Positions 10,227 through 13,950 of a stretch of 24,854 nt of DNA are shown here, piece by piece. The stretch comes from a virus. Within the stretch, counting starts at the first letter, position 1. Every line of letters starts with the position of its first letter. The notes under the pieces are model-generated. The model saw only the letters and a program-made list of their open reading frames with translations, did not search any database and was not told the DNA's origin. A program made the translations under genes and the position numbers. Location: positions 1-24,854 of IMG/VR virus record IMGVR_UViG_3300034980_000140. One strand, 5' to 3'.

Positions 10227-10397
10227 TTATTGTGTGGTGCCGGACTTAATGACGGCCTCAATGGCTTTCGCGTCTTTCGCGTCTTTCTCGGCCTGATTCG
10301 CAGCGTCAAGCTTTGCGCCTTCTATCTTCATCTCGCGGATCAGTTTCTCTGTCGAGGTCTCTTTCTTTTTCGGTGTCTCTTTCTTTTCTGTGGTCAT
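10227..10397 (-). CDS. 56-aa Lys/Glu-rich protein between terminase and portal
   Basis: The ATG (complement of 10395-10397) shares its A with the terminase TAA stop (TAATG), and AGGAGC lies about six bases upstream. The peptide begins MTTEKKETPKKKE and contains a helix EKLIREMKIEGAKLDAANQAE, then repeats of KDAK. There is no cysteine or hydrophobic core, so it is likely a single charged helix. The overlap means its translation is probably coupled to terminase. It could be a packaging or portal cofactor; nothing beyond position and composition supports this. Confidence 0.7.
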   Translation of the reverse strand: MTTEKKETPKKKETSTEKLIREMKIEGAKLDAANQAEKDAKDAKAIEAVIKSGTTQ

Positions 10398-12049
10398 TAC
10401 CAGCTCCTGTCTCGGGGTATAGGGTTGAACGGACTTTTTGCGACTTGCTTTTTATAGCTCTTATGCCTGTCTAAGTCACCGATTGTGACTTGTCCCGGTG
10501 TCCGTGGTGACTGTATCTCGGTTACGCCCTTAACGAAATGCCGGCGCGATAGAATGTCAGCTGCCATTACGGCTGTTCGAGCACGGTCGAAGTGATGAGT
10601 GGCGCCATCGAGGCCCTTTGTTCTCTTCTTTCGCGTACCGTCATAGTTGAGCAATTGATGTAGAAGGCCCCGACTACGCAGCGTTATTTCTTCGTGCCTG
10701 AGCATCCGCACGAGCAGCGCTTCTGCCTCTTGCAGTCTCTTGTTGGTCGCGTACCAACCTGGATGGTTGTGACTTGTCCACAGGAGATTCTGTGCTCCGT
10801 TCTCTTTAAGGATAGCGATGCAAGCGGTAGCGTTTGACTCGACTGCGAGTAGTCCCATGTTGTATCGCTTCTGAGCTCGCTGTAGTCGTTTAGAGAAGCG
10901 GTCAGGTGCTTCACGTCCTTCCCAGAAGGCAACTTCTTTACGCTCGAGCGCATCCCACACAGTGAGGGCCGATTTATCACCGGTAGACCCGAATCCTGCG
11001 GGGTCAGCTGTAATGAGGTACTTCGTGTCAGGTATAGGTGCGTCTATTTCAAAGACATTAAACATACCCATAGGCGGGTCAGGCTTAGCTGCTGCCAATG
11101 CGGGTTTGAGAAGATCAGCAGGCATGACGGGGTTGGTAGAGCCCAGCCAGCCATCGTACGGATCAGACGGGTACTTAGAGGAAAAGAGGCGAGCGTCTCC
11201 GACAAACTCAGTGCCCAGAGCTCTCTGCCTGAAGGTAAGGCTACCCAGTCCCATGTCGGCGTGCCGCTGTTGATACTCTATTTCGTCGGGCTTAAAGTCA
11301 ATGCCCTTCGCTTTGATGCGGCAACTGTCATCTCTCCACCACTCGAGAAACACGGGGGTAAACCTGCTGTTTCCTTCTAACGCTGACTGCCACATTTGTT
11401 CGTGGTGGGAGCCTGCGCGTCCTGGTGTTGACTCTAATACGACCTTGGCGTTTGGCCTTTTGTTAACGGTAGGGAAGATGTTGATGGCTGCTTTCTTTTG
11501 CCATTGTGCTTCACCGAACTCTGTGATGACGAGGCGATCGATGGACCTACCAATAGCAGGAGAACGCCCGCCTGCTGTTAAGACTTTGATGCCGCCGCCA
11601 TGGATGAACTGCATTTGAGTTGCACCTGCCTTTCGCCCCGGCGCGAGAGGCATCCTTACGTCATCCGGAAGTCTTTGATAAGCAAATAAAATGCGCTCAA
11701 AGATATCTTCAGCAGTGTCCTGACGTTCTGCAATCAGCAGCCCCTTGACGCCTTCTAAGAACATACAGTCTCTTAGTAAGAGCATGACGGAGACGGTGGT
11801 TATTTTAGCCTGGCGGAACTTGTTTACCATTATCCATTGGTTGTTCTCGTATGCCTCAAGTACTTTACGCTGAGTGAACGTAGGCTCCATGTACCCTATT
11901 GTTTCGTCTTCCCTGACGATCTGACACATCGAGACAAAAGCATCTGGTGTGGAGAACAGTGCACGGACTTTGCCTGCATGTATTCCTGGTATGTCAGCAT
12001 ACCGGGCACCGGAGTCTCTTTTAGTCGTCTTGCGTTTAGCGTTTGCCAT
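10397..12049 (-). CDS. terL: Terminase large subunit (packaging ATPase and nuclease)
   Basis: This 550-aa protein is the DNA-packaging motor. The ATPase domain shows a degenerate Walker A, FRQAKITT (78-85), like the RQxx(I/F)TT form in many terminases. Walker B is LVITEFGE (173-180) with catalytic Glu177, and a coupling motif LESTPG is at 205-210. The nuclease domain of RNase H type has Asp349 in ITADPAGFG, Glu404 in AVESN and a likely third acid, Asp488, in HHFDRA. Length and motif spacing fit full-length TerL. No Shine-Dalgarno is evident before the ATG at 12049, so it may be leaderless or start differently. It is the first gene of the leftward operon and diverges from the capsid gene. No small terminase gene is seen adjacent. 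Confidence 0.95.
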   Translation of the reverse strand: MANAKRKTTKRDSGARYADIPGIHAGKVRALFSTPDAFVSMCQIVREDETIGYMEPTFTQRKVLEAYENNQWIMVNKFRQAKITTVSVMLLLRDCMFLEGVKGLLIAERQDTAEDIFERILFAYQRLPDDVRMPLAPGRKAGATQMQFIHGGGIKVLTAGGRSPAIGRSIDRLVITEFGEAQWQKKAAINIFPTVNKRPNAKVVLESTPGRAGSHHEQMWQSALEGNSRFTPVFLEWWRDDSCRIKAKGIDFKPDEIEYQQRHADMGLGSLTFRQRALGTEFVGDARLFSSKYPSDPYDGWLGSTNPVMPADLLKPALAAAKPDPPMGMFNVFEIDAPIPDTKYLITADPAGFGSTGDKSALTVWDALERKEVAFWEGREAPDRFSKRLQRAQKRYNMGLLAVESNATACIAILKENGAQNLLWTSHNHPGWYATNKRLQEAEALLVRMLRHEEITLRSRGLLHQLLNYDGTRKKRTKGLDGATHHFDRARTAVMAADILSRRHFVKGVTEIQSPRTPGQVTIGDLDRHKSYKKQVAKSPFNPIPRDRSW

Positions 12050-12100: not shown

Positions 12101-12129
12101 TTGCACGGTTAGACTTTGTGTTGTATACG
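12101..12129 (+). promoter_or_regulatory. Weak candidate promoter for the capsid operon
   Basis: TTGCAC and TATACG are separated by exactly 17 bp; each hexamer matches the sigma70 consensus at only 3-4 of 6 positions. Initiation would fall around 12136, inside the 5' arm of the RNA element, which argues against it being the promoter for an intact element. It is recorded as a candidate only. Confidence 0.25.
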
Positions 12130-12216
12130 TAGATTACGCACCCAATTAGTGTGTCGGGCAGCCGAAAGGTCCGACGAGGTCACTCCGGGCAGGCGAGACG
12201 CAAATCCCTAATCTAT
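12129..12216 (+). ncRNA. Cloverleaf-like structured RNA upstream of the capsid gene
   Basis: TAGATTA (12130-12136) pairs with TAATCTA (12209-12215), extended by a G-U pair at 12129/12216, and encloses several helices. CGCAC (12137-12141) pairs with GTGTG (12149-12153). TCGG (12154-12157) pairs with CCGA (12171-12174), topped by GCC/GGT with a GAAA tetraloop and a 3-nt bulge GCA. GAG/CTC (12176-12178/12183-12185) forms a GTCA loop. GGG (12187-12189) pairs with CCC (12206-12208) around an inner GCG/CGC hairpin. All three wobble pairs are G-U only when the plus strand is transcribed. A downstream AGATTA (12231-12236) could compete for the closing arm. It is not a normal tRNA. A capsid mRNA leader element is most likely; a free RNA is possible. 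Confidence 0.5.
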
Positions 12217-12264
12217 ATTATCTCGGTTGCAGATTAAGTATAGTCTCGCAGCCAAAGGCATAAA

Positions 12265-13359
12265 ATGTCCATTAGTACCGAACTATTGAACACTACGTTT
12301 GCGGATCTCCGTGGACCTCTGGTGAACTCGTTTGTTCGTAGCAATGAGCTGTTTGAGGCCCTGACAACAAAAGCACGTATGCCCATGGAGGGAGGAACTC
12401 GTATTGAGCGTTCCTTCGCCGGTGGTGCTCCTGCTCGTGGTGTCGGTGTCTACGTCGGTGATGAGCTACTGAACATGACACGTCGTCAACAAATCAACCG
12501 GTTCCAAGTTGAGCCTCACCGTGTTGTTGTCGCTGTTAACATTCCTAAGCGTGAGATGAACCAGAACAGCGGTAAGCTGGCTGTCATTCGTCTTATCGAA
12601 GAGTACCCACAAACCACTATGGAAGCGGTGAAGGCAGACTTGAACAAGTACTTCCTCACTGGTGTCAGCCGTGGTCTTGTGTTCACTACTTCTGAGCTCA
12701 AGGGATTCCTGACTCTTAATGGTGCTGTTTCTGACGGTATCGGAACCGGTGTGACCCATGGTCTCATTGACTTCCGTACAATCGCAGAGCAGACATCAGA
12801 TGCACAAGAAGTTCAGGGCGTAGAAAAGAGCAGCACGATTTCTCACTTCAACCAGTTTGAAGATGTGACATCGACTTCAGGATTCTCTGCTAACGGTCTT
12901 CACCCCCTCCGTCGGATCTACCGTAAGTGTGCTCACTACGCGGGCGGTCCTGGTAAGGGTCCTGACCTTGTGATCATGGACGACGATACATACACTCTGT
13001 ATGATCAGAACCGTCTGCAAAACAACGTGCGCATCAGTCTTGTAGACGACAAGACGGACAAGACCAACACCATGGCTCTCGAGCTTGGTTTGGCTAAGGT
13101 CCACTCGTCGATCGATCTCGACAAGGATGACTCGGCGTTTACAGGTACCGCTGCAGCTGACGGAGTTTCTTACTTCCTCAACACTGACTACATTGAATTC
13201 CCGATGCTCGAAGCTCCGAACATCTCTGAGTTCAAGGAACGTGTCGGTGACCAGGACGTGGTTACTGCTCTGTTTGCTATGCAAGGAAACATGATCTGCA
13301 CCAAGCTCCCCGCACAGGGCGCTGTCACCGGTACCGCTGGTACCACAGCTACTTCGTAA
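12265..13359 (+). CDS. Major capsid protein
   Basis: This 364-aa protein is read as the main shell protein, probably of HK97 fold. It begins MSISTELLNTTFADLRGPLV, then an N-arm with NELFEALTTK and a beta-rich region with RRQQINRFQVEPHRVVVAVNIPKRE (about 74-98, starting at RRQQINRFQV). A long spine-like helix region follows (LIEEYPQTTMEAVKADLNKYF, about 111-131). The later part includes the LVIMDDDTYTLYDQ segment and an ending of Gly/Thr/Ala. This segment order, with DDxTY after a Gly-rich loop, is common in capsid proteins of podoviruses and siphoviruses. Weak AAAGG precedes the ATG. It is the first gene of the rightward virion operon and is followed by a decoration-like protein. The fold is inferred; the family was not searched. 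Confidence 0.8.
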   Translation: MSISTELLNTTFADLRGPLVNSFVRSNELFEALTTKARMPMEGGTRIERSFAGGAPARGVGVYVGDELLNMTRRQQINRFQVEPHRVVVAVNIPKREMNQNSGKLAVIRLIEEYPQTTMEAVKADLNKYFLTGVSRGLVFTTSELKGFLTLNGAVSDGIGTGVTHGLIDFRTIAEQTSDAQEVQGVEKSSTISHFNQFEDVTSTSGFSANGLHPLRRIYRKCAHYAGGPGKGPDLVIMDDDTYTLYDQNRLQNNVRISLVDDKTDKTNTMALELGLAKVHSSIDLDKDDSAFTGTAAADGVSYFLNTDYIEFPMLEAPNISEFKERVGDQDVVTALFAMQGNMICTKLPAQGAVTGTAGTTATS

Positions 13360-13371
13360 GGGAGGTAAATC

Positions 13372-13896
13372 ATGGGAACTGTTAAAACAGACGCTCTATC
13401 AACTACTTACACTTCTGAGGTATACCCTGTGGGTACTCGGTATGTGCAATCTGCTGACGAGGTAAACGCTGCCAACTCGACTCACTACGGTGACCGGGAA
13501 TGGATCTTCGTTTACAACGATGAAGCATCAACCGCGTTTGCGGAAGGTAACGTAATCATGCTGGATAACAGCGATTACGCGTCCTTCCACGGGCTGCTCT
13601 CCACCGCGACACTTCATGTGTATCGGATTCTTGGGGTGGCAGGCCACGCAATCGCAGCTGGTTCTTACGGTTGGATTATCGCAAAGGGTGCGGGTGAGGT
13701 TCAGTGTGACGGTGGTGTTGCTCAAGGTGATCGTTTGGTCGCTCACGCAAGCACTGCTGGTGTCGCTGACACAATCGTACTCAACGCTGATGCCACTACC
13801 GACAATCTTGAATGTGTCTTTGCAATGGCTCTTGAAGCCGATGCAGGTTCTTCTTCGGGAGACAAGGCAACATGTTGGATTAACGGCGTGTGGTAG
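13372..13896 (+). CDS. Capsid decoration-like protein
   Basis: This 174-aa protein has GGGAGG about eight bases before its ATG, 13 bp after the capsid stop. It is beta rich. The segment AIAAGSYGWIIAKGAGEVQCDGGVAQGDRLVAHASTAGVAD (about 93-133) has the Gly-Tyr-Gly-Trp, then Gly-Asp-Arg-Leu-Val and Gly-Val-Ala pattern of phage cement or decoration proteins that sit on the capsid surface. It ends with a short Cys/Trp segment. Position directly after the major capsid gene agrees. It could instead be a head-fibre base or a minor capsid subunit. Confidence 0.6.
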   Translation: MGTVKTDALSTTYTSEVYPVGTRYVQSADEVNAANSTHYGDREWIFVYNDEASTAFAEGNVIMLDNSDYASFHGLLSTATLHVYRILGVAGHAIAAGSYGWIIAKGAGEVQCDGGVAQGDRLVAHASTAGVADTIVLNADATTDNLECVFAMALEADAGSSSGDKATCWINGVW

Positions 13897-13905
13897 TTAG
13901 CTACT

Positions 13906-13919
13906 ACGTGATATAGTTG
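13906..13919 (+). promoter_or_regulatory. Second copy of the candidate phage promoter motif
   Basis: ACGTGATATAGTTG matches the motif at 1274-1287 at 13 of 14 positions (A for C at the sixth). TG at 13909-13910 precedes TATAGT (13912-13917), giving an extended -10. If a promoter, initiation would fall near 13916-13924, inside or just before the 5' arm of the stem-loop at 13919-13950. It lies upstream of the adaptor-like gene at 13967. Confidence 0.4.
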
Positions 13920-13950
13920 AGGGGCGTAGCTTTCGGGTTACGCCCCTCTC
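13919..13950 (+). terminator. Stem-loop after the decoration gene, possible partial terminator
   Basis: GAGGGGCGTAGC pairs with GTTACGCCCCTC in a 12-bp stem with one G-U wobble and a 6-nt TTTCGG loop. The following bases (TCGTATTTAGG) are only moderately T-rich, so it may reduce rather than end transcription of the tail genes. That would allow more capsid and decoration protein than tail protein. It could alternatively be a 5' stabilising hairpin for a transcript begun at 13912-13924. The wobble supports a plus-strand RNA. Confidence 0.6.

Follow-up and report, generated by a model that had tools for sequence, protein, structure and literature searches.

A previously undescribed, structured leader RNA heads the capsid operon in a lineage of uncultivated phages

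The capsid operon carried by a 24,854-nt stretch of viral DNA (IMG/VR record IMGVR_UViG_3300034980_000140; this whole stretch is called the window below) is close to certain to begin with a structured, cis-acting 5'-terminal leader RNA. The RNA constitutes a previously undescribed family, and the lineage that carries it consists of uncultivated phages. The best explanation of its function, to which we assign a probability of about 0.4, would be that of a late-operon leader that acts co-transcriptionally on RNA polymerase, by analogy with the put RNAs of phage HK022.

The window is a fragment of a phage contig. Its minus strand encodes the portal and terminase, its plus strand the capsid and other virion proteins. 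Between the terminase gene (10397-12049, -) and the capsid gene, which diverge, lie 215 bases, and the leader RNA occupies the capsid end of this region (Table 1). In relatives in which an extra co-directional gene intervenes upstream, the RNA remains adjacent to the capsid gene. The same-strand array that opens with the capsid gene has small gaps; it spans about 32.6 kb in G004 and no less than 24.5 kb in G001, a near-identical genome. The window showed no DNA similarity to cultivated phages; the nearest cultivated capsids, those of Mx9 and ppBjS10J-1, are about 25% identical, and both phages lack the leader RNA and differ in gene layout. One virion operon (L239:2134-10788, -) encodes a 2,884-aa protein that carries an ART-PolyVal domain (polyvalent protein ADP-ribosyltransferase) and has weak matches to acetyltransferases, and genes of about 2,870-3,576 aa occupy the equivalent position in G004 and G013.

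Table 1. Features of the capsid leader and its surroundings in the window.
Feature	Position	Strand	Remark
Promoter-like element: -35 TTGCAC (12101-12106), 17-nt spacer, -10 TATACG (12124-12129)	12101-12129	+	same layout in 98 leaders
Predicted transcription start (+1)	12136-12137	+	inferred from promoter spacing
Conserved structured RNA core (GCACCC...GGGCAGGC), 57 nt	12138-12194	+	about 99 of 100 distinct capsid leaders; covariance-model E 7e-17 (rough)
5' strand of terminal stem: GC (P0), A, CCC (P1)	12138-12143	+	partner 12187-12194
P0, GC/GC	12138-12139 / 12193-12194	+	invariant
Internal loop, A opposite CAG	12140 / 12190-12192	+	
P1, CCC/GGG	12141-12143 / 12187-12189	+	98.3% of cells paired
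Middle stem P3, AGUG/CACU	12148-12151 / 12181-12184	+	many pair types in all four pairs
Apical stem: P2a, bulge, P2b, loop	12153-12175	+	four significantly covarying pairs
P2a, GUCGG/CCGAC	12153-12157 / 12171-12175	+	
Bulge GCA	12158-12160	+	GUA in most relatives
P2b, GCC/GGU	12161-12163 / 12168-12170	+	
GAAA loop	12164-12167	+	
3' strand of terminal stem, GGG-CAG-GC	12187-12194	+	in longer leaders can alternatively pair with the downstream leader
P4 5' strand, GCGAGAC	12193-12199	+	competes with terminal stem
P4 3' strand, GUCUCGC	12243-12249	+	p = 0.03 for the window alone
Major capsid protein gene, headed by the leader RNA	12265-13359	+	phrog_9953 major head protein, E 1e-26
Second gene of the capsid transcript, virion structural protein	13372-13896	+	phrog_29386, E 4e-5
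Terminator-like hairpin between genes 2 and 3, 13-bp stem and U-rich tail	13919-13948	+	conserved in most lineages

A search with the capsid protein yielded 46 viral loci, and every locus with an intact upstream region has one short motif ahead of the capsid gene. A DNA pattern was then built from the RNA alone, without reference to the capsid, and searched against all IMG/VR contigs. All matches to the complete motif, including GCACC, were followed at a distance of 34-85 nt by a capsid homologue, with 42-94% identity to the window capsid, except L134, a chance match in coding sequence; capsid homologues were recovered independently through the RNA pattern. Matches without the 5' GCACC were almost all chance matches in coding DNA, and the chance matches tested were negative with the second covariance model described below, but three of the matches without GCACC, L119, L131, and L148, are capsid loci with divergent 5' ends. 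The capsid alignment widened the set to 190 capsid loci with 100 distinct upstream regions, of which 99 carry the motif, some in divergent form, on the same strand and upstream of the orthologous gene. Among the capsid relatives collected, only L101, whose capsid is very distant and which has a coding gene directly upstream, lacks any trace of the RNA.

A covariance model was built from 77 sequences. Its only match in the window was at positions 12134-12202 (68.5 bits, E 7e-17, covariance-model E-values being rough by construction), and it detected the element in 95 of 96 sources, the divergent L131 being the sole miss. At that locus (L131:6994-7071) the capsid is 67% identical, and the leader retains only the apical stem and GGGCAGGC, the 5' GCACC part having been replaced; it could be a degenerate or recombined copy. 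Whole records (contigs of 42-76 kb) contained one significant copy in 19 of 20 cases, always directly upstream of the major capsid gene, and the twentieth, G015, had come from a chance pattern match. No further strong copies were found in the scan of these 20 records. A second model, from which the clade with about 40% capsid identity had been withheld, still detected that clade (L142, E 7e-10; also L086, L238, L148, L102, and L119), with E-values of 7e-10 to 1e-3 for the held-out members and nothing in the chance-match controls. GCACC, GUAGC, GGUCC, and GGCAGGC are nearly invariant while capsid identity drops to about 40%. The main exception to the 3' strand consensus is a group of four loci (L168, L183, L189, and L190, each at 2859-2929) in which the near-invariant GGGCAGGC is replaced by GGACAAGC. 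The only match in a bacterial genome, L238, is a 73-kb contig in a Planctomycetota MAG with a 38%-identical capsid and the RNA leader, and is probably a phage contig co-binned with the bacterium.

With Rfam 15 at the gathering threshold, no family (riboswitches, ribozymes, pRNA, and phage RNAs included) was found in the window and 16 relatives, permissive Rfam searches gave chance-level matches only, and no tRNA or tmRNA was detected at the locus, in agreement with the initial annotation, which had called the RNA unclassified. No prior description of the RNA was found in the literature searched, in which the coverage of subscription papers was incomplete.

The consensus derived from 98-99 distinct capsid leaders is a single long hairpin. 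Its 5'-terminal stem (GC-A-CCC / GGG-CAG-GC) is followed by a variable stem in the middle and, at the apex, by a stem that carries a conserved bulge, GUA or GCA. Covariation was assessed with a purpose-written, R-scape-like test in which substitutions are redistributed along the inferred tree, the relatedness among many of the sequences being handled by clustering and by this tree-based null. Of the 2,415 column pairs in the covariance-model alignment, five were significant, and every one of them falls in the hairpin, the long-range P1 included; in the MAFFT alignment, four were significant, again all in the hairpin. In the latter alignment, 85.4% of the cells are paired, compared with 77.1% in shuffles and at most 47% when the structure is slid, and 151 cells are changed on both sides, compared with 60 ± 8 in shuffles; RNAalifold, run unaided on it, returned the apical stem only. 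The third pair of P1 changes from CG to UA in 14 sequences and covaries significantly (E 0.017 in the tree-based test). P0 is invariant, so covariation cannot test it, and P3 is the variable and least secure helix, with 51-63% of cells paired in the sequence alignment and rank 9 in the tree-based test. At the P2b wobble G12161-U12170, 76 of 77 sequences have G-U; read from the opposite strand, the pair would become an A-C mismatch, which identifies the plus strand as that of the RNA. The fold is supported by phylogeny-aware covariation among the sequences, and the RNA combines a conserved core with covarying helices, a combination also expected of a riboswitch aptamer.

The cloverleaf proposed in the initial annotation can form, given that the minimum free energy fold of 12129-12216 contains its closing stem, hairpins, and GGG/CCC arm, but most of it is not what the relatives preserve. 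Its 7-bp closing stem is already damaged in L001, whose capsid is 98.6% identical, other relatives lack the 3' strand of this stem, and half of it would lie outside the transcript because the 5' strand (12129-12135) precedes the predicted transcription start. The 5-bp CGCAC/GUGUG hairpin is paired in 50.7% of cells, compared with 50.0% in shuffles, and the GGG of the GGG/CCC arm pairs instead with the CCC at 12141-12143. The one helix of that drawing with evolutionary support is the bulged, GAAA-looped helix GUCGG[GCA]GCC-GAAA-GGU-CCGAC (12153-12175). The plus-strand orientation, argued there from G-U pairs, is borne out by the conserved wobble; reading of the RNA with the plus-strand capsid mRNA is supported, and the suggested role as a capsid mRNA control element is probably correct. 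The two observations named there as refuting the RNA give a divided result: the covariation is significant, the folding energy is unremarkable (-27.3 kcal/mol, z = -1.5, with 16 of 200 shuffles folding equally well), and the window sequence by itself would have been weak evidence.

Upstream of the RNA, the 98 leaders share a consensus resembling TTGC-n17-TATACA/TAAACC, with a spacer of exactly 17 nt in 77 and a distance of 6-9 nt from the end of the -10 element to GCACC in 95. The promoter score was 10.08, compared with 7.74 in shuffled upstream DNA, and the shuffles gave no preferred spacing. A strict consensus promoter scan of the window does not list this element because its -10 lacks the final T; since the final T is often missing, an activator may be involved. 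Given the fixed spacing between the -10 element and the RNA, the RNA would start at about +1, with transcription initiated no more than about 2 nt from the terminal stem, and we infer that the promoter is the one in use. A simple, weak scan of three genomes for similar promoters at other positions gave no informative pattern.

Spacing between the RNA and the capsid start codon ranges from 34 to 110 nt; one large group has 38-45 nt, the rest 46-110 nt. In the longer leaders, GGGCAGGC and its variable extension have a complementary segment downstream, with which they would form an alternative helix, P4; examples are GGCGUA/UACGCC in L114, GGCAUCA/UGAUGUC in L167, and GGCAGGCGCAG/CUGCGCCUGCC in L039. 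In 26 clustered leaders of middle and long length, the mean energy was -16.0 kcal/mol for a leader's own pairing and -13.5 kcal/mol for swapped pairing (0 of 5000 permutations), and the advantage held when the extension was tested by itself. The alternative helix is missing from short leaders (p = 0.14 in the extension test). P4 and the terminal stem are mutually exclusive, and P4 is predicted to be about 8 kcal/mol more stable in long leaders; since it should outcompete the core there, the core would have to act while nascent. Predicted access to the ribosome-binding site does not differ between the two states (mean difference 0.009), which speaks against a Shine-Dalgarno sequestration switch, and no terminator follows P4 or is formed by the leader itself. 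As modeled, the behavior of P4 fits co-transcriptional action followed by refolding better than it fits a classical riboswitch platform.

The other end of the capsid-gene 2 unit is also marked by structure. In most lineages the gap between genes 2 and 3 contains a hairpin of 12-16 bp with a U-rich tail (z of -2 to -5 in most of them), in which the stem sequences are entirely different yet compensated. This candidate terminator is absent from a clade in which this gap measures 28-43 nt, and the leader RNA is kept there. Just upstream of the hairpin, at 13907-13916, lies CGTGATAYA, which is conserved in many lineages and might be an extended -10-like element or a processing site.

That unpaired and bulged bases stay nearly invariant among capsids of only 40% identity hints at a partner under stronger conservation than the capsid, for example RNA polymerase, and the fixed +1 register, the long operon, the hairpin within it, and the refolding leader point to RNA polymerase as well. 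If the promoter is used, the fold would be the first RNA to leave the polymerase. It would fold while emerging, and its invariant unpaired and bulged bases would bind the transcribing host RNA polymerase or a factor on it. The resulting change in elongation would carry the polymerase past the gene 2 hairpin and through the rest of the long late operon, an effect that HK022 put RNA exerts on early genes; in longer leaders, the more stable downstream helix would later take the place of the nascent fold. Proteins usually switch on the late operons of phages, namely Q-type antiterminators, sigma factors, or phage polymerases. An RNA that holds one register to the promoter of the capsid gene across capsids down to 40% identity would constitute a control element dedicated to late genes and acting via a conserved partner. 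It may even represent a distinct class of RNA-only antiterminator for a phage late operon, a promoter-fused nascent RNA that modifies host RNA polymerase to pass the terminator after the head genes and is unrelated to put, a proposal that we hold tentatively and regard as possible at best. If the RNA does act in the manner of put, antitermination by RNA alone would gain an independent example, and how general the mechanism is could be tested; the promoter, the 57-nt RNA, the capsid gene, and the downstream hairpin are small enough for a one-plasmid reporter in E. coli. Against this polymerase-directed role stand the occurrence of the RNA at the capsid operon and never at other operons, its retention in the clade that lacks the gene 2 hairpin, and the missing alternative helix in short leaders; moreover, a terminator after the head genes could simply be leaky, as in T7, with no need for antitermination.

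Other explanations were weighed against the same evidence. A chance fold of the intergenic region would suit the ordinary folding energy of the window, but it is contradicted by the covariation, the deep conservation, and the detection of held-out sequences; the comparative evidence excludes it, and we regard its probability as practically negligible. The initial annotation also raised, more speculatively, a packaging RNA, and its position between the terminase and capsid genes recalls phi29 pRNA, likewise a structured phage RNA near packaging and head genes. The element, however, is probably no separate transcript unit: no terminator follows it, for which reason it is read as a leader, and it is continuous with the capsid mRNA at 34-110 nt, stays with the capsid gene, shows neither sequence nor Rfam similarity to phi29 pRNA, and matches no Rfam ribozyme family, so that a packaging or other trans-acting small RNA is very improbable. 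Binding of the leader by a virion protein, most simply the capsid, that represses or times its own synthesis would account for the strict capsid linkage, which persists where an extra co-directional gene sits upstream. This linkage cannot separate a capsid-specific from an operon-level role because the capsid gene is always the first of the operon, and the near-invariance of the core against capsids down to 40% identity, together with the lack of a detectable RNA-binding domain in the capsid protein, makes such an autoregulatory or assembly signal unlikely.

We consider it equally unlikely that the core is a metabolite or ion aptamer whose expression platform is the downstream segment competing for GGGCAGGC. 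Riboswitch leaders do share with this RNA a highly conserved core and a 3' strand that, in longer leaders, re-pairs with downstream sequence in a mutually exclusive, co-evolving helix, but here that helix is linked to neither a terminator nor Shine-Dalgarno sequestration and is absent from short leaders, and no Rfam aptamer matches. A stabilizing or translational leader is less easily set aside, though still rather doubtful. The ompA leader is a 5'-terminal stabilizing stem-loop, and the capsid leader likewise opens an mRNA for an abundant structural protein with a stem, which starts about 2 nt or less from the predicted +1. The stem would bury the 5' end of the capsid mRNA against 5'-end-dependent decay and the gene 2 hairpin would guard the 3' end, so that the capsid-gene 2 message, which encodes the most abundant virion proteins, would be long-lived; the capsid specificity of the RNA and the conserved 3' hairpin bounding the bicistron are in keeping with this. 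End protection, however, needs no invariant bulge, loop, or flanks, whereas the sequence of the capsid leader is nearly invariant, beyond such needs, and long leaders are predicted to exchange the terminal stem for P4.

The closest functional parallel to the polymerase-directed role that we favor is found in HK022. Its put elements are structured phage RNAs of about 60-70 nt that precede long operons with terminators and for which no trans-acting phage protein is known, and putL, which is compact and immediately follows its promoter, needs no proteins for its action (PMC9378689). A covariance-model search of HK022 positions 25,000-40,751 gave no match (best 9.6 bits, E 0.9), and the two families are unlike in sequence. 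The leader RNA is also compact and would lie just downstream of the promoter of a long operon; put, however, consists of two stem-loops and serves two early operons, whereas the leader RNA is one long hairpin with a conserved internal loop and bulge, present once per genome at a late operon headed by the capsid gene.
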